Shown one piece after another: positions 14,240 to 23,950 of a stretch of DNA of 40,687 nucleotides. The first letter of the stretch is position 1; the number at the start of each line of letters is the position of its first letter. A program made the translations under genes and the position numbers. Location: assembly GCA_944386345.1 (NCBI GenBank), contig CALXAR010000008.1:1-40687 (forward strand), in the 5' to 3' direction. Origin of the DNA: an uncultured Clostridia bacterium (GTDB lineage: Bacteria > Bacillota > Clostridia > TANB77 > CAG-465). The notes under the pieces are model-generated. The model did no database searches and was not told the DNA's origin. It saw only the letters and a list, made by a program, of their open reading frames with translations.

Positions 14240-17023
14240 TTATTCTCCATATCTATATATATCTAATATTAATGCTGCATCGTCTGCATTTATTATATTA
14301 TCAAAGTTTAAATCAGCAACCATTTTTTGAACTGATGTAGAATTTCCATATCTATACATATCTAGTGCTACTGCTGCATCATCTGAATTTACTATTCCAT
14401 CAAAATTAGCATCTCCTAAAATATAATTATTATCACTTACTATTACATTTATTTGAGCAACAATATCATTATATTTTGCTGTTACTAAAACTTTACCTTG
14501 ACTTTTGGCTACAATATTTCCATCTACAATACTTGCAACCTCATCATCTGATGAAGTAAATATAATGTCTTCTTCATTTTTATCAAAAGAATCAAACAAA
14601 TAATCTAATTTTACAACGTCTCCAACTTTAACTATATATCCTCGCTTATTAAACTCTAATTTATCTATAGAATATATATTAACTACAACAGTATCACTTA
14701 CATCTTTATATTTTGCAGTAATAGTTGCCTTTCCTACGCCAACAATTTCAAATTCATTATTATTTATTTTTACTACATCAGGATTATCGCTTTCAAATAT
14801 AATATCTTCTTCAGTTGCATCGTCATTGAAATAGTAATCTATATCAAACTCAATAATAGAATTATTTCTATACTCAACATCAATTATATCAGAAACAAAA
14901 TCTAGTTTATTAGGCTTTAATACATTTATTTCGATTGTATCTTCTGCATCTTCATATGTAGCTGTAATTGTTACATTACCTTCTGAGATTGCAGTTATTT
15001 TTCCGTTTTCTACTGTAGCTATATTTGTGTCTGAAGAATTCCAATTTATATCTTCAAAAGTAGCGTTATTAAGCAAATGGTAATTTAAATCAATATCTTG
15101 CATATTTCCAATAACTATATTTAAAACATCTTCATTAAAATTAATTCGATTTTTCTCTTTTAAAACATTTACTGTAATTTGTGCTACAATATCGTTATAA
15201 CTAGCTGTAACTATAGCCTGTCCTTCTGATTTTGCTGTTATAACTCCAGTTGCATCTACTTCAACAATGCTAGTATCACTTGACTTCCATTCTATTGAAG
15301 CTCCATCTTCTAGATTATATTTATAGTCTAATTTTAATGAGTTTCCTTCTTCAATTTCAACTTCATCTTGTAAAAACTCTATGCTATTTATTGTTTCTAG
15401 CTTTGCATATAAAGTAACATTATTCATTATTTTATCTGAAAAACTATATTTTTTTGTATAATCTTGATCATAGTACCATCCATCAAAATTATAATTTTCT
15501 TTTTGAGGAGCAGCAAATTCCTCAACTGATGTACCATAGTTATTTAAACTAATCTCTTTATACTTATTATCTTCTAGTAAAAAAGTTACTTTAGGATGGT
15601 CAACATAAGTTAGCATTTCCTTTCCCTCTATAAGATTTTCAAAACCAACTCTACCTTCTAAATAATAGTATGGCACGTCAGGCTTTATAAAGCTTGCATA
15701 AGTTATAGAAGGAACAGAGCCTTTAAATATTATTGCTTGTGCATTATCAGCTCTATAAAATACACTATCACCTATTTCATGAACATTTGAGCCGATTACT
15801 ATATAACCATCTAGAGATTCACAGTTAAAAAATGCTGCGTCTCCAATTTTTGTAACTGAATCTGGTATAATCAAGTCTCCATCTAAACTAGTAAGATAGT
15901 CAAAAGCCCAACTGCCTATTGTTCTTAAACTATTTCCTAAATATAAGCTCTTAACAGAGTTACAATTAAAAAATGCTCTCTTTCCAATTTCTCTTATGTT
16001 ATTTGAAATATTAATTTCTTCTAAACCAGTACAATTTCCAAAGCAATCATCTGGTATCTCTTCAATTTCTGAGTCAAAGTCAACATTAGTTATACTGTAA
16101 CAATTATAGAATGCTTTATTTCCAATAGAATCAAGTGTAGAAGGAAAATCAATTTTTCCAGATAGACTATTACACTCACAAAAAGCACCTTCTCCTATTG
16201 ATACTAATCCATCAGGTAAGTTTAATGGTCCTAAAAGCTCTTTACAGCCATAAAAGGCATACTCTCGAATTGACTTTACACTACTTGCAATATTTACACA
16301 ATTTCTTCTTGTATCTACACATTTTATAAGTTCAGTCTTATCTTGATTATATAAAAGCCCATCTGAAAATACAAAAAACTTATTTCCGTTCTCTATATTA
16401 ACACGCTCTAAAGATGAAGTATTATATAATGCTAATACTCCTATATCAAAAACTTTCTTAGGAATATTTAAAGTTGTAATTTTTGAAGCATTAAAGAAAG
16501 AATAATCACAAATATATTCAGTCTCATCTCTTAGGGTTACCTCTCCTTTTTTTGCTTCTGGGCAAGATACAAAAAATACATAATCTTTACTATAAATCAT
16601 TCCGTCATCTGAAGAATAAGTAACATTATTTTTATCAATATTTACTTTCTCTAAATTTCTGCAATTTAAAAGTGTATCTGGATATATTACCCCTACACAT
16701 GAAGGAATATTTATTTTTTTTAGATTTTTACCGTTTGCAAAGCACTCTGTATAAAGTCCATATACTGGATATCCAGCTATAGTTGATGGAACATCAAGCT
16801 CAGTTGCATCTCCTCTATAGTCTACAATATACGCTACATAGTTTCCTTTACTTTTTTCTACTATCATATATGAATAATCTCCATAATCTATAGTACTAGA
16901 TGCACTGGCATTTGGATCTATCTCATCTACTTCATCTGTATAATTAGCAGCAAAAGCTGATTTATTGCAAATTAAAATACAAAAAACAAATATTAACATA
17001 AATACTATTTTTCTATTTATCAT
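14240..17023 (-). CDS. Large secreted LRR / InlB-repeat / Ig-like (Big2) protein with C-terminal dockerin
   Basis: A 927-residue exported protein. I start it at the ATG at 17023, seven bases after an AAGGGG SD, rather than six bases upstream. After a signal peptide (about 1-25) come BspA-type leucine-rich repeats (about 75-470), one InlB/Listeria-Bacteroides repeat (about 478-543, with NFDGWYYD), four Ig-like Big2 domains of about 80 residues each (about 545-865, with SSDTSIVEV-type signatures), and a dockerin (870-927). The layout suggests an adhesin or binding protein held away from the cell by the Big2 stalk and attached through its dockerin. The promoter is at 17047-17075; the shorter LRR-dockerin gene follows in the operon. 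Confidence 0.87.
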   Translation of the reverse strand: MINRKIVFMLIFVFCILICNKSAFAANYTDEVDEIDPNASASSTIDYGDYSYMIVEKSKGNYVAYIVDYRGDATELDVPSTIAGYPVYGLYTECFANGKNLKKINIPSCVGVIYPDTLLNCRNLEKVNIDKNNVTYSSDDGMIYSKDYVFFVSCPEAKKGEVTLRDETEYICDYSFFNASKITTLNIPKKVFDIGVLALYNTSSLERVNIENGNKFFVFSDGLLYNQDKTELIKCVDTRRNCVNIASSVKSIREYAFYGCKELLGPLNLPDGLVSIGEGAFCECNSLSGKIDFPSTLDSIGNKAFYNCYSITNVDFDSEIEEIPDDCFGNCTGLEEINISNNIREIGKRAFFNCNSVKSLYLGNSLRTIGSWAFDYLTSLDGDLIIPDSVTKIGDAAFFNCESLDGYIVIGSNVHEIGDSVFYRADNAQAIIFKGSVPSITYASFIKPDVPYYYLEGRVGFENLIEGKEMLTYVDHPKVTFLLEDNKYKEISLNNYGTSVEEFAAPQKENYNFDGWYYDQDYTKKYSFSDKIMNNVTLYAKLETINSIEFLQDEVEIEEGNSLKLDYKYNLEDGASIEWKSSDTSIVEVDATGVITAKSEGQAIVTASYNDIVAQITVNVLKEKNRINFNEDVLNIVIGNMQDIDLNYHLLNNATFEDINWNSSDTNIATVENGKITAISEGNVTITATYEDAEDTIEINVLKPNKLDFVSDIIDVEYRNNSIIEFDIDYYFNDDATEEDIIFESDNPDVVKINNNEFEIVGVGKATITAKYKDVSDTVVVNIYSIDKLEFNKRGYIVKVGDVVKLDYLFDSFDKNEEDIIFTSSDDEVASIVDGNIVAKSQGKVLVTAKYNDIVAQINVIVSDNNYILGDANFDGIVNSDDAAVALDMYRYGNSTSVQKMVADLNFDNIINADDAALILDIYRYGE
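14245..14391 (-). repeat. Two 48-bp dockerin-half modules (copies 3 and 4 of 6)
   Basis: Modules at 14245-14292 and 14344-14391, encoding NADDAALILDIYRYG and NSDDAAVALDMYRYG on the minus strand. They match the copies at 13370-13516 and 22333-22479 with scattered, mostly third-position differences. Confidence 0.85.
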
Positions 17024-17046
17024 ACACATACCCCTTACTAAGATTT

Positions 17047-19521: not shown

Positions 19522-19547
19522 TAGTTTAAAACTATCACTATTTTTTT
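19517..19547 (+). terminator. Terminator of the KOW-Smr gene
   Basis: A 9-bp stem (19517-19525 with 19531-19539) overlapping the stop codon, followed by A and seven T. Confidence 0.88.
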
Positions 19548-19555
19548 ACATAAAA

Positions 19556-19584
19556 AAAGAATCCCATAAATATGAGATTTCTTT
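19556..19584 (-). terminator. Minus-strand terminator far downstream of the 369-aa gene
   Basis: On the minus strand an imperfect 13-14 bp stem (one bulge, one mismatch; arms 19556-19568 and 19571-19584) is followed by a run of T. It faces the 369-aa gene, whose stop is about 350 bases upstream, implying a long 3' untranslated region or a separate transcript. Confidence 0.55.
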
Positions 19585-19934
19585 ACATTTTAAGCAGAAT
19601 ATTAATTCTTTTTGCTTTTTATTGTCATACATTCCGTTACAATTCTTCACACGAGTATGGCCATATAGGCGATCTGTGTTACAATTCAAAGCGTTAAAAA
19701 CGTTTGACACGAATTATCTCCATAAAATGGATAAAATGTAGAAATTGTATATCAATCAAATATTACACTATATAAAATAGCATAATCAAACCACTTTATT
19801 TAATTGACATACTAGCAAATTTGAATGTCTTATCCTACTCTATATGCAAATTACTCATTTTATAATAGGATTCTTAGATTCTGTTTCCGTTCAAAATTAA
19901 TCTGTTATAACTGTTATTTTACAACATCGTGCAT
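19585..19934. other. Gene-free stretch of unusual composition
   Basis: I see no open reading frame of note, no tRNA and no known riboswitch here. The bases differ from neighbouring spacers, with clusters such as ACACGAGTATGGCCATATAGGCG. It contains a 10-bp direct repeat GTTACAATTC (19636-19645 and 19678-19687) and the words TTGACA at 19704 and 19814 without a fitting -10. It sits between the stop of the 369-aa gene and a minus-strand terminator, so it may be a long 3' region, a remnant, or a non-coding RNA. Confidence 0.5.
19636..19687 (+). repeat. 10-bp direct repeat GTTACAATTC, 42-bp period
   Basis: Two exact copies at 19636-19645 and 19678-19687. Only two copies are present and the repeat is too short for a CRISPR array; it may be a binding site pair or insertion remnant. 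Confidence 0.5.
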
Positions 19935-21044
19935 CTAGTTTATAACATTAACAGTTACAGATGTTGTAGCTGAACTTCCGTCAGCTCCTATAACAACAGG
20001 TGAAATAACAGTTGCTTCACCTTCAACAGTTGAAACATTTAAATATTCACCTGAGATGCTATAATCTAATCCATCAAGGCCTTCGACAGATTGAACATCT
20101 CCGCTAATTTTGAATTGAACAGTACTACCAGCTACTGCTTCATTACCATCAATAGGTGTGATTGTAACTGGGCTTGTTGTAGGCTCAGCAGGAATTGTTT
20201 CCTCTGAACTATTGTTGTCATTTTCAGGTTGCGTTTGTTCCCCTTGATTATTCTCATCAGGTTGTTCTGGAGTCTCTACCTCCTCGTTGCTAACATCATC
20301 TTGATTTTGTGATTCGTCATCACTTTGATTGTCATCAGGTAAAGTTGTATCTTCCGTTCCAAGCTCTGCATCTAAAGCATTATCCGTATCGATATCTACT
20401 TGAGGTGCATCAGGCTTTTCCTCTTCTACTGGAGTATTATCTACTACACCGGTAATACCCGAATCAGAATCGATTACATCCTTACCCTCTTCCACTTCCT
20501 GTGCTATCTCCTCATCTTGATCAGTACCTTCTCCAAAATTACTTTGGATATTATTGATTGATGAGCCTGTTGATTGCATATTTCCAAGATTTACTCCTGT
20601 AGAACCGGTTCCTACATTTGAGAAACTTGGAATTAACGGATCAGTTACCTTTGAACTGTTCCTTGGTGGATAGTAATTTGTATTACCACCACTACTTGAA
20701 CCATTGTTTGGTTCACCTTCAGTTTCGTCTTGTTGGGTTTCTTCTTCCTGTACGACATCTATGATGTCTTCACCAGTTGTATCTCCAGTATTATCATCAA
20801 GATTTTTTGCATTTTGAGCAAAAATAATCCCAATTATAAAAACTAGAGCGATTATTGCAAAGAAAATAACCTTTGCTAAAGTTGTTACCTCTTTATGAGC
20901 ACAAAGTGCTATAAAAAGGCCAAAAATAAATGTTGCTGCAATAACAGCAAAAACATTATGAGTTAATATCCATAGCAAACCAATCACAGCTACTGTGACT
21001 AGGTTTGAGATATAAACCCGTGGTATTGAATATACCTGCTTCAT
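19935..21044 (-). CDS. Unknown three-helix membrane protein with long acidic linker and Ig-like end
   Basis: A 369-residue protein I cannot name. I start at the ATG at 21044 with AGGAGGG seven bases upstream. Three hydrophobic helices (about 11-70) are followed by an acidic, Gln/Asn/Gly/Ser-rich, low-complexity linker (about 78-285, for example EEEKPDAPQ) and a C-terminal beta-rich domain (about 288-369, TTSPVTITPI to SVTVNVIN) resembling a bacterial Ig-like fold. The linker and domain probably face outward. The gene and flanks look richer in G/C than nearby genes of unknown function, suggesting a different origin. It has a strong promoter, a 22-bp palindrome in a roughly 140-base leader, and no close terminator. 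No homologue is evident in the window. Confidence 0.72.
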   Translation of the reverse strand: MKQVYSIPRVYISNLVTVAVIGLLWILTHNVFAVIAATFIFGLFIALCAHKEVTTLAKVIFFAIIALVFIIGIIFAQNAKNLDDNTGDTTGEDIIDVVQEEETQQDETEGEPNNGSSSGGNTNYYPPRNSSKVTDPLIPSFSNVGTGSTGVNLGNMQSTGSSINNIQSNFGEGTDQDEEIAQEVEEGKDVIDSDSGITGVVDNTPVEEEKPDAPQVDIDTDNALDAELGTEDTTLPDDNQSDDESQNQDDVSNEEVETPEQPDENNQGEQTQPENDNNSSEETIPAEPTTSPVTITPIDGNEAVAGSTVQFKISGDVQSVEGLDGLDYSISGEYLNVSTVEGEATVISPVVIGADGSSATTSVTVNVIN

Positions 21045-21141
21045 AGCAATCCCTCCTATAATTTTTTTCACGAAAACAGAAACTGCTCCAAATTTGCTTT
21101 TAATTACGTAAACTATCCTCCTTATATTTATCAAAGTTACT

Positions 21142-21163
21142 GCATTTGCAAATTTGCTTATGC
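21142..21163. promoter_or_regulatory. 22-bp imperfect palindrome in the leader of the 369-aa gene
   Basis: GCATTTGCAAATTTGCTTATGC; 9 of 11 half-site positions are symmetric, with a perfect core GCAAATTTGC. It lies about 20-40 bases downstream of the predicted transcription start, the right place for a repressor operator. Confidence 0.5.
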
Positions 21164-21187
21164 GTTTTCTAATTTCGATACATACTA

Positions 21188-21216
21188 ATTATAGCACACG
21201 AAACTCTGTTATGCAA
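21188..21216 (-). promoter_or_regulatory. Strong sigma-A promoter for the 369-aa gene
   Basis: Minus strand: TTGCAT, 17-bp spacer, TATAAT with TGC in front (extended -10). Predicted start near 21181, giving a leader of about 135-140 bases. The leader also carries an AAGGAGG (minus strand, about 21115-21121) with no start codon at a usable distance. Confidence 0.75.
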
Positions 21217-21268
21217 CAATTTTCTAATATTTTTGTAAAAATTATGTAATGTTATAGCAAAAAAATAA

Positions 21269-21296
21269 GCTATAGACCAATATTTTGCTCTATAGC
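21269..21296 (-). terminator. Terminator of the kinase-like gene
   Basis: GCTATAGA pairs with TCTATAGC (21269-21276 with 21289-21296), followed on the minus strand by TTATTTTTTT, directly after the stop codon of the 314-aa gene. Confidence 0.88.
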
Positions 21297-22241
21297 CTAC
21301 CTTATTTTCTTAATAATTAGACTTATTTGCTTTTCTCCTATTTTTGAACGTACATTTTTTATATATACTATAAATCTCCTTATTTTTTCTACAAATTGTT
21401 TATCAGAAATCTTCTCTTTCATATCTATAGTAAAATACCAATTAGATTCATCCTCATATATAATTAGCTTAATTTCATTTTGTTTTTCATCAATAAGTAG
21501 CTTAAGTAATCTGCAAATTACAAATATCACATCATTTAATGGTCCACATATATATGAGCCAACTTTAATTTTCTCTTCTATTATTAGATTAATATCATTA
21601 TTTTTTAGATATTCATCTAGTATCTCAAGAATAATTTGCTTAATCTCACTACAGTGCATTATTGACTCGTTAGAAAGACTTGTTACATTTGATATTAACT
21701 GTAGTAGCATATTAGAATTATCAAGTGCAGTAATATTTTTCCCATATAAGCTATCTAGTATCTCCTTTTTTTGCACATCATCTTTTAGGTCATTACTAAG
21801 TAGCTTAATTACATCTTGACTTGCACCTAATACTAAGAGATTAGCTTGTATTTTATGTGATATACTCTCAACAAGATTTCCTACTATTTCTAGTTTATAT
21901 TTTTCAAAATCAATTTTTTGCTCGCCTTCAATTATCTTTATTGTATATACAATTTCTGTCATTAAAGCTTCTATGTTTATGTCTTGATTATTAAAAAATA
22001 TTGGTTTTGTATACTCTTTAAATTTATATAAATGCTCTAGCTCTTCTTTCTCATCAAAAAGATAAATTAATATTTTTATTTTTCCTTTTTCAAGCTCTGT
22101 TAATAACTTATCTATATTATCAAATTGCTCTGTTTTAAATCCTTCTTTTTCTACTTCTTCTACTATATTATTTAATATATTTTTATGCTTAGAATAAATA
22201 GTTATTTTAATATTTTTCTTTACATTATCATATATTATCAT
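21297..22241 (-). CDS. Degenerate histidine-kinase-like protein (pseudokinase-like)
   Basis: A 314-residue soluble protein. Residues 10-105 look like a receiver-type alpha/beta fold (strands KITIYSK and IKILIYLF) without the conserved phospho-acceptor Asp and Lys pattern. Residues 108-145 resemble the dimerisation helix of histidine kinases, with SISHKIQANLLVL placing His129 at the H-box. The last 130 residues resemble a HATPase fold, but the N-box Asn is absent (RLLKLLIDE) and I find no G1 or G2 Gly motifs, so ATP binding is doubtful. It might be a phosphotransferase or scaffold similar in layout to Spo0B. A TAGGAGAT SD supports the start. No partner regulator is adjacent. Assignment is tentative. 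Confidence 0.55.
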   Translation of the reverse strand: MIIYDNVKKNIKITIYSKHKNILNNIVEEVEKEGFKTEQFDNIDKLLTELEKGKIKILIYLFDEKEELEHLYKFKEYTKPIFFNNQDINIEALMTEIVYTIKIIEGEQKIDFEKYKLEIVGNLVESISHKIQANLLVLGASQDVIKLLSNDLKDDVQKKEILDSLYGKNITALDNSNMLLQLISNVTSLSNESIMHCSEIKQIILEILDEYLKNNDINLIIEEKIKVGSYICGPLNDVIFVICRLLKLLIDEKQNEIKLIIYEDESNWYFTIDMKEKISDKQFVEKIRRFIVYIKNVRSKIGEKQISLIIKKIR

Positions 22242-22327: not shown

Positions 22328-23950
22328 TTATTTTCCATATCTATATATATCCAATATTAAAGCAGCATCATCTGAGTTTATAATTCCATTTTCATCTATA
22401 TCTCCAATTAAAATATCTTCATCTGTTGCATTTCCATATCTATATAAATCTAGTGCAATAGCGGCATCATCTGAATTTACTGCGCCACTATTATCTAAAT
22501 CTCCAATAATTAATCCAAAATGAACTTTTATCTTGCAAACAGCTTGTACTTCTGGATTTGATTTTAATTTGCACACAATGTTACAACTACCGTTACTTAC
22601 AGGGATAACCTTTCCATTTTCATCTACCGTTGCGATATCTTCATTATCAGAAGAATACATTATATCTTCTCCATCTAATACTGCTGTATCTGGTAATACG
22701 CTAGAGATTACAATATATTGTTCTTTTTCTTCACTAAAATTAAGCTCTGTGGTATTTAAAATCAAACTAGTAATAGGTATTTTAGTATAATTTATACTAA
22801 CTTTAGAATCCTCATTAAATTTATACTCTTCATTAATTAAATTACCATCTTTGTCTTCAATTCCGTTATATATATAACCTTCTTTAGCATACTGTGGAAT
22901 ATAGTCTATTGCCCCATTCTTGTTTGCACCTATTATATCAACTACTTGTCCATTATCTATGACTTCTACCTTTACTCTGTCATTCATATACATAATGTCC
23001 ATATCAACATTGCCTTGATCATTGTCTGCTCCATCTACAGAACCCTCAAAAGTATATTGCCACATAATAGGAGAAAGCTTTGTATCTGCTATCGTAATTT
23101 TTTCACTAAAATCAGGTTCATCTTTAGGAGATGCATACCAGTAATTATATGCTAGAGCATTTAATTTATCTAAATCTAAATAATTTGTAAAGAAGTCTCT
23201 ATTTGAATAAATAATTGGTGTATATCCTGCCTCGTATATTTTATTGCAAAAAGCAATTGCAATCTCAGTAACTTTCTTCATTCCAAGATTTGCTCTATCT
23301 GCGCCTTCTATGTCATATGCAATAGGTAGAGTCATATTTTCTTTATATTCTTTTCCATACTCATTTAATGCATTTAAAACATAAATAGCTTCTTGCTCTG
23401 CCTCTTCAGCATTTGTTGCTAAGCAGAAATGATATATTCCAAATGACATATTATTCTCGCTTGCACCCTTTAAATTATTTAAAAACTGTTTATCAAACTG
23501 AAAATCATACTCTTCTTCTTTATCTAATTCTTCGTCATACCACCCAAGTGATGACCTAATCATAGCAAAATCAATTCCCTGATTTTTTACTTTATCCCAT
23601 TCTACTTCACCATTAAAACTTGATACATCAATTCCGACATAATATCCTGATGAGAAGTTACAAGTATCACTCATTGTACCATCTGTTACAGTAACACTAA
23701 ATTCACCAAGCCCTTTAGTAAATATAATTCCATCTTCTGATATATCTGCCACACTTGAATCTGAAATAGTATATTTTAAATTATCTTTACTATCTGTAGT
23801 AATAATCTGTGATATATCAAATTTTTCATATATCTTTAGAGATTTTCTACTCACATCAAAAGATGTTGTAGCATAAATATTTGATTTTAGCTCTAAAGCT
23901 ATAATAGTTCCTAAAAATATAACTAAAATTTTTCTTAAATTACCTTTCAT
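22328..23950 (-). CDS. Secreted GH25 muramidase with Ig-like domains and C-terminal dockerin
   Basis: A 540-residue exported protein. After a signal peptide (about 1-28) come an Ig-like Big2-type segment (about 30-97), a glycoside hydrolase family 25 domain (103-323; GIDVSSF with Asp108, AYDIEG with Asp213 and Glu215, and DMDIM with Asp316 and Asp318), a second Ig-like domain (about 390-478, SSDNEDIATVDENGKV), and a dockerin (483-540). GH25 enzymes cut the MurNAc-GlcNAc bond of peptidoglycan. Dockerins are mostly known on plant-fibre enzymes, so one on a muramidase is notable; the dockerin is nearly identical to those of the LRR proteins at 13.4-17 kb. GGGAG precedes the ATG. Confidence 0.9.
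   Translation of the reverse strand: MKGNLRKILVIFLGTIIALELKSNIYATTSFDVSRKSLKIYEKFDISQIITTDSKDNLKYTISDSSVADISEDGIIFTKGLGEFSVTVTDGTMSDTCNFSSGYYVGIDVSSFNGEVEWDKVKNQGIDFAMIRSSLGWYDEELDKEEEYDFQFDKQFLNNLKGASENNMSFGIYHFCLATNAEEAEQEAIYVLNALNEYGKEYKENMTLPIAYDIEGADRANLGMKKVTEIAIAFCNKIYEAGYTPIIYSNRDFFTNYLDLDKLNALAYNYWYASPKDEPDFSEKITIADTKLSPIMWQYTFEGSVDGADNDQGNVDMDIMYMNDRVKVEVIDNGQVVDIIGANKNGAIDYIPQYAKEGYIYNGIEDKDGNLINEEYKFNEDSKVSINYTKIPITSLILNTTELNFSEEKEQYIVISSVLPDTAVLDGEDIMYSSDNEDIATVDENGKVIPVSNGSCNIVCKLKSNPEVQAVCKIKVHFGLIIGDLDNSGAVNSDDAAIALDLYRYGNATDEDILIGDIDENGIINSDDAALILDIYRYGK
22333..22479 (-). repeat. Two 48-bp dockerin-half modules (copies 5 and 6 of 6)
   Basis: Modules at 22333-22380 and 22432-22479, encoding NSDDAALILDIYRYG and NSDDAAIALDLYRYG on the minus strand. 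Copy 5 is closest to copy 1 (13370) and copy 6 to copy 2 (13469), so whole dockerins, not halves, were copied between genes. Confidence 0.85.

Follow-up and report, generated by a model that had tools for sequence, protein, structure and literature searches.

Long 3′ untranslated regions (UTRs) are able to regulate the genes that they belong to, as has been described for icaR of Staphylococcus aureus (PMC3868564), and regulation by a 3′ UTR has also been suggested for hilD (PMC4027200). On a larger scale, a comparative genomic survey of human microbiomes is reported to have yielded 3161 intergenic structured-RNA candidates (PMC8040213). Here, we analyzed a gene, designated X, that is followed by a structured 3′ region in a window of 40,687 nucleotides (the whole stretch of DNA under study) from a low-GC genome of 1.29 Mb. 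This genome is referred to as G000; other G numbers denote species of the same genus and L numbers denote loci of these relatives.

Architecture of the X protein

Gene X (19935-21044, minus strand) encodes 369 amino acids, begins with ATG preceded by the ribosome-binding site GGAGGG and was, as an earlier note on this DNA had stated, the single gene in its segment. The same note had described three helices, an acidic low-complexity linker and an Ig-like end, all of which were borne out by structure prediction and by matches to solved structures. In the AlphaFold model, three predicted membrane helices (residues 7-28, 31-49 and 55-81) occupy residues 7-81 (20802-21026, minus strand). Their topology was assigned by eye from the placement of K and R residues, and on a positive-inside reading of this placement the C-terminus would lie outside the cell. 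Between the helices and the Ig-like domain, AlphaFold predicted long disordered or low-confidence acidic stretches, in which one small conserved block could be recognized (residues 173-201; 20442-20528, minus strand), with a helix plus a beta hairpin and the pattern ...GKD..D...GITGVVDN.P. The C-terminal part, residues 288-369, had been singled out earlier for structure prediction. It contains an Ig-like domain at residues 293-369 (19938-20168, minus strand; pLDDT ∼93), which is an Ig-type beta-sandwich and the most conserved part of X. Solved Ig domains matched this cap with Z up to 8.6 and rmsd of 1.9-2.2 Å over 78-81 residues. The protein ends ...VTVNVIN.

Sequence searches added little to the structural assignment. 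X had at most weak, sub-threshold matches in Pfam and none in NCBIfam or PHROGs, and none of 11 X-family members matched Big_2 (PF02368) at E⩽0.1. Neither a signal peptide nor LPXTG was seen by eye, and the features of a sortase-anchored wall adhesin were not found. A PDB sequence search with the Ig domain returned noise and no informative match, and a literature search for a matching protein architecture returned nothing close. The orthologue in G024 (L099:501-2324) is larger, with 607 amino acids and three Ig-like repeats at its end.

The neighborhood of X contains several envelope genes (GH25, BacA, PBP1A-like and phosphodiester glycosidase), which fits a cell-surface role of X and proves nothing. 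Two large genes flank the region: 14240-17029 (minus strand) encodes a BspA-type LRR/Big_2 protein with a weak dockerin match, and 22328-23950 (minus strand) encodes a GH25 lysozyme with Big_2 repeats.

Descent and composition of the locus

X orthologues were identified between the genes Kin and Smr, always in the same orientation, in 13 species counting G000 (12 others in the genus). The order Kin, X, Smr, with Smr convergent, was observed in G001, G002, G005, G008, G009, G010, G013, G014, G016, G020 and G022. LepA lies beyond Smr in nine of these 11 relatives; its place is taken by a different gene in G001 and G014. The assembly of G024 has X, Smr and LepA on one contig and Kin on another. 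In the other half of the genus, X was absent at the Kin-Smr junction. The spacing between Smr and Kin without X was 40 bp in G012 and 145-420 bp in G006, G007 and G017, several other X-less species had different genes in the interval, and Kin and Smr were on separate contigs in G019, G021, G023 and G027. In the Kin tree the 13 carriers formed one side of a branch with support of 100/100, and the same was true of the Smr tree (99/96), each implying one change. Orthologues of X were 24-48% identical, and no member of the X family was detected outside the genus when 36 genomes of the taxonomic family, sister genera included, were searched with a profile. No transposase or integrase ORF was found near X and flanking repeats were at chance level with none convincing, in agreement with what had been noticed before. 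A phage origin was considered and rejected, as there was neither a PHROG match nor a viral-contig relative.

Several observations concern the neighboring genes themselves. Kin (21297-22241, minus strand), previously called kinase-like, is present in 27 of the 28 species. At its N-terminus, Kin is similar to response-regulator receivers, Spo0F among them (PDB profile, best natural E-values of 3.5e-7 to 1e-4), and the remainder looks histidine-kinase-like by eye; Kin matched no family in Pfam or NCBIfam. In the sister species G017 and G018 (L116 and L117), a stop codon plus a frame change splits the KOW-Smr gene.

The earlier note had also regarded the segment as GC-richer than its neighbors and different in codon usage. 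The first claim held for the coding sequence (37.6% GC, compared with a median of 27.8% and a maximum of 34.7% for the other genes in the window) and failed for the flanks; the second was confirmed, X being the most atypical gene in the window (codon log-likelihood z −5.3). As 35.3% GC is predicted for X from its amino acids alone, most of the excess follows from amino-acid composition. GC3 was 19.6% versus 13.2% expected from the amino acids, and reached 23% in the linker versus 11.5% in the Ig domain; the excess thus lies mainly in the linker, not in the Ig domain or the flanks. Since it is confined to the coding sequence, the ‘island’ corresponds to the CDS rather than to 19540-21296. The composition is shared by the relatives, in which X had 31-40% GC versus 27-29% for its neighbors. 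Codon usage deviated in 10 of the 12 X copies measured at this place, G000 included (z −3.3 to −14.9), the copies of G008 and G013 being those without deviation. The shift partly tracked ribosomal-protein genes (r 0.27-0.53, P 0.017-0.11, five species): AAC, TTC, TAC and GAC were enriched in several species as in those genes, and AAG and GAG were enriched in X, opposite to the ribosomal-gene trend. Avoidance of A-runs was rejected as the cause of the AAG/GAG bias; it was unsupported in G000 and partial elsewhere, with nothing beyond codon usage in X. The best reading of these data is that X has long had its odd composition, which stems from acidic linker residues and a codon bias partly like that of ribosomal-protein genes. 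Such a lasting odd composition need not signal recent transfer.

On the basis of gene order, trees and composition, X is best read as vertically inherited and clade-specific, and recent acquisition is unsupported. The suggestion of acquired DNA, taken as a recent event, was contradicted by the same place in 13 species, by the composition kept in 10 of 12 copies and by the one change in the trees. Of the marks of a genomic island, deviating composition was present but common to the orthologues, and neither patchy presence nor mobile genes were observed. The comparison with relatives, in which an empty site had been expected to favor acquisition and the same place and composition to refute it, gave a divided answer: X was present with its composition within the clade and not across the whole genus, and sister species without X do occur, one with 40 bp in the interval. 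As the sister half lacks X at the junction and the sister genera lack the family, a single old gain at the base of the clade, or loss in the sister clade, is possible. The gain would have been a single horizontal event from an unsampled donor, bringing the promoter and the 3′ RNA along, and we consider it rather unlikely, as we do the idea that the composition of such a donor is still visible in X. The X-less junctions, the failure to find the family in sister genera and the odd codon usage speak for such a gain. However, composition should have ameliorated over a divergence that left orthologues 24-48% identical, two species keep X without anomaly, mobile genes, repeats and a viral relative were not found, and the junction carries other genes in relatives, which makes it a generally variable spot. 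One such gene, in G011 (L110:3873-5192), is reverse transcriptase-like and of the group II intron type by eye, showing that the Kin-Smr junction takes mobile DNA in other lineages. With vertical inheritance as the preferred reading, what had been suspected to be foreign DNA becomes an inherited trait of a clade.

Expression signals and the structured 3′ RNA

The flanks of X were described before as gene-free with signals of their own. Protein genes were indeed absent, but the flanks hold a conserved promoter and leader on one side and a conserved structured RNA on the other; the expression signals were confirmed as an extended −10 promoter, a leader and a terminator. The promoter (21188-21216, minus strand; aligned in eight species) has a −35 element TTGCAT (21211-21216), a 17-nt spacer and an extended −10 element TGTGC-TATAAT (−10 at 21188-21193). 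Common to all eight leaders in the alignment are TTACATAA, TTGCA, a ∼17-nt spacer and TGTG.TATAAT, followed by a palindrome. In G000 the palindrome is GCAAATTTGC (21142-21163, minus strand) and in relatives GGCAAACTTGCC, GACAAATTTGTC and AGCAGAATTGCT. It lies ∼30 nt after the −10 element, and its symmetry is kept in the eight leaders while the sequence varies, which makes it a candidate operator or small hairpin.

The gap between X and Smr measures 366-561 nt across species and ends in a terminator in eight aligned species. The whole 3′ RNA unit (motif, hairpin H1, junction and terminator) spans ∼246 nt at 19552-19797 (minus strand). It begins with the motif AAAGTGGTTTGA (19786-19797, minus strand), 137 nt after the X stop codon, and continues directly with H1 (19762-19786, minus strand), whose pairing is kept while its sequence changes. 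The structured core (19624-19744, minus strand; model R1) is a four-way junction in which a closing stem P1 surrounds H2, H3 and P2, and the unit is closed by an intrinsic terminator (19552-19584, minus strand) conserved in eight species. Minimum-energy folds of the 3′ RNA broadly agreed across eight species. Compared with shuffles, the core gave z from −1.2 in G000, which is weak alone, to −4.5 in G002; the stretch between the X stop and the motif gave no structure signal by the same comparison.

Two covariance models were built, R1 from G000, G005 and G010 and R2 from G002 and G020 alone. R1 matched G016 (E 7e-4) and G001 (0.017) at the corresponding place, and R2 matched G001 (0.0016), G014 (0.011) and G016 (0.028). 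Two models from disjoint species both found the matching place, together covering G016, G001 and G014; neither found the other's founder sequences, and the junction was unrecognized by the models in G008, G009, G013, G022 and G024. An R1 scan of the genus located the RNA at the X locus only, in five species. In the two alignments (five and four sequences), 16 pairs had changed on both sides versus 7.3 in shuffled controls (0/500) and 10 pairs versus 2.8 (0/500), with far lower counts in sliding controls; because the alignments were fitted to the models and hold few sequences, these numbers lean towards structure. No Rfam 15 family exceeded the gathering threshold in the window or at the 3′ element in the relatives' loci scanned. 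Comparative sequence evidence shows a conserved structured RNA of roughly 250 nt downstream of X that is absent from Rfam 15. If this part holds, it would represent a new structured RNA family tied to surface-protein genes.

Two further ideas on the function of the element were considered and not adopted. Pairing of the X RNA with its own 5′ leader was stronger than in shuffles in G000 and G005, borderline in G010 and G020 and absent in G001, G014, G016 and G002 (the G016 leader as tested included upstream DNA), a pattern without consistent conservation across the species tested. The motif as the Shine-Dalgarno sequence of a small ORF was dismissed by eye, as start codon and frame are not conserved.

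The paralogue X′ and the 12-nt motif

A second copy with the same architecture, X′, was found at an unlinked locus in at least 10 species, where its neighbors encode a radical SAM protein and DapF and a gene for valyl-tRNA synthetase is close by. The G000 genome had neither X′ nor a match to that radical SAM protein, which could reflect loss or an assembly gap. X′ has its own equivalent of the 3′ RNA, likewise opening with the motif AAAGTGGTTTGA; beyond motif and hairpin, the two RNAs fold differently. In most species the motif lies 125-166 nt behind the X stop (a variant form in G024 lies at 210 nt), and the distance from the X′ stop is 120-152 nt at loci with the exact form; only 0.2% of shuffled X′ gaps contain it. 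In most of the 23 loci the motif runs straight into a hairpin (mean z −2.6). Exact copies are close to unique in the genomes examined: the 12-mer is found once in G000, at X, and the longer 15-mer TAAAAAGTGGTTTGA just twice in G005, at X and at X′. A loose search with two mismatches gave background levels, and exact copies alone are informative.

The motif also changes in step at the two loci. In G014 both loci carry AAAGGAGTCTTG, of which the genome has exactly two copies and the sister species G001 none; G001 has AAAGTGGTTTGA at both loci, and its X gap is 93% identical to that of G014. In G002 both loci carry GGGGTTTAA. Agreement between X and X′ within genomes exceeded permutation for the motif (P 0.013) and was borderline for the upstream flank (0.048), with no excess for the downstream flank (0.55). 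This permutation takes species to be independent although they are related, so that more weight falls on the two in-step changes than on the test. For gene conversion to explain them, a tract of ∼12 nt would be required. A common trans-acting partner is the simpler reading; none was identified in the loci compared.

Other features of these loci were also recorded. In G009 both X and X′ are frameshifted in the linker, away from long homopolymers (L096:8235-9444 and L102:7216-8383), and pseudogenes, phase variation and assembly errors are candidate explanations. A small-RNA-like gene converges on X′ (L106:7186-7420, reverse strand relative to X′; also L100-L105 and L178-L181) and consists of a promoter, a tRNA-like part, a hairpin, a near-invariant UAAUCCUUUUUAAUAAUUUUUUU and a UUCG-capped terminator. 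The tRNA-like part has a D-arm GCUC/GAGC with GG and a T-arm GGUUCGAAUCC with a compensated CAG/CUG variant. This RNA was found in 11 species, with a single copy that in every case lies next to X′ (z −2.1 to −4.6); it was unrecognized by ARAGORN and Rfam, and a literature search for a matching tRNA-like RNA returned nothing close. It was rejected as partner of the motif, since G001 and G014 have different motifs and yet share an identical body of this RNA. No unique complement of the motif was present in the loci compared.

Taken together, X is probably a clade-specific, vertically inherited surface-protein gene that forms its own transcription unit with a regulatory 3′ RNA. The three N-terminal helices would anchor the protein in the cytoplasmic membrane, the acidic disordered linker of roughly 200 residues may span the cell wall as a putative stalk, and the conserved Ig-like domain would be displayed outside as a putative binding end. 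The X transcript would run through the 3′ RNA, which may control X through stability, translation or processing or may be released as a small RNA, and control could proceed through a factor that recognizes the motif in trans at both loci. We tentatively propose that surface Ig protein and structured 3′ RNA form a duplicated module whose motifs change together through one trans-acting partner with drifting specificity. That the whole amounts to an undescribed, RNA-based control of surface-protein paralogues is likewise a speculative reading.

Two other explanations of the 3′ element have to be weighed. It might be a small RNA gene in its own right, with a separate promoter, that stands behind X by chance and outside its mRNA, a possibility that deserves attention even though we do not favor it: the structure is strong, the terminator is its own and a −35/−10-like pair can be read by eye across motif and H1 in some species. 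However, the spacing of this promoter is inconsistent across species (by eye), and the order of motif, hairpin and RNA recurs behind X as well as X′ at a similar distance from the stop (120-166 nt), which is what a 3′ UTR would show. The 12-mer could instead act at the DNA level, as a site for a recombinase, nuclease or DNA-binding protein, the same protein reading both copies. Change in step at unlinked loci and near-uniqueness in the genomes examined would be expected of such a site as well, but in most cases an RNA-type hairpin comes after the motif, varying in sequence and not in pairing, and no inversion or insertion was seen at either locus; we regard a DNA site as improbable. Under the preferred reading of a regulatory 3′ RNA with a trans-acting partner, the two-locus change offers a rare natural experiment for finding that partner via sister species.

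Compared with described systems, X resembles Big_2-type surface proteins, including the LRR/Big_2 and GH25/Big_2 proteins of the window, in having an Ig-like fold in an envelope protein of a low-GC, Gram-positive-type genome. It differs from them in lacking a Pfam Big match and, by eye, a signal peptide and LPXTG, in its three-helix N-terminal anchor and in carrying its Ig domain at the extreme C-terminus. Its RNA shares with the regulatory 3′ UTRs of icaR and hilD a long 3′ region behind the coding sequence with its own terminator, whereas a conserved multi-helix structure and a motif common to two paralogous genes set it apart from both, and 5′-3′ pairing like that of icaR was not consistent across the species tested. 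As far as the published account of the microbiome survey (PMC8040213) goes, its candidates rest on the same type of evidence as the X 3′ RNA, which stands apart from the Rfam 15 families and could already be included in that candidate list.
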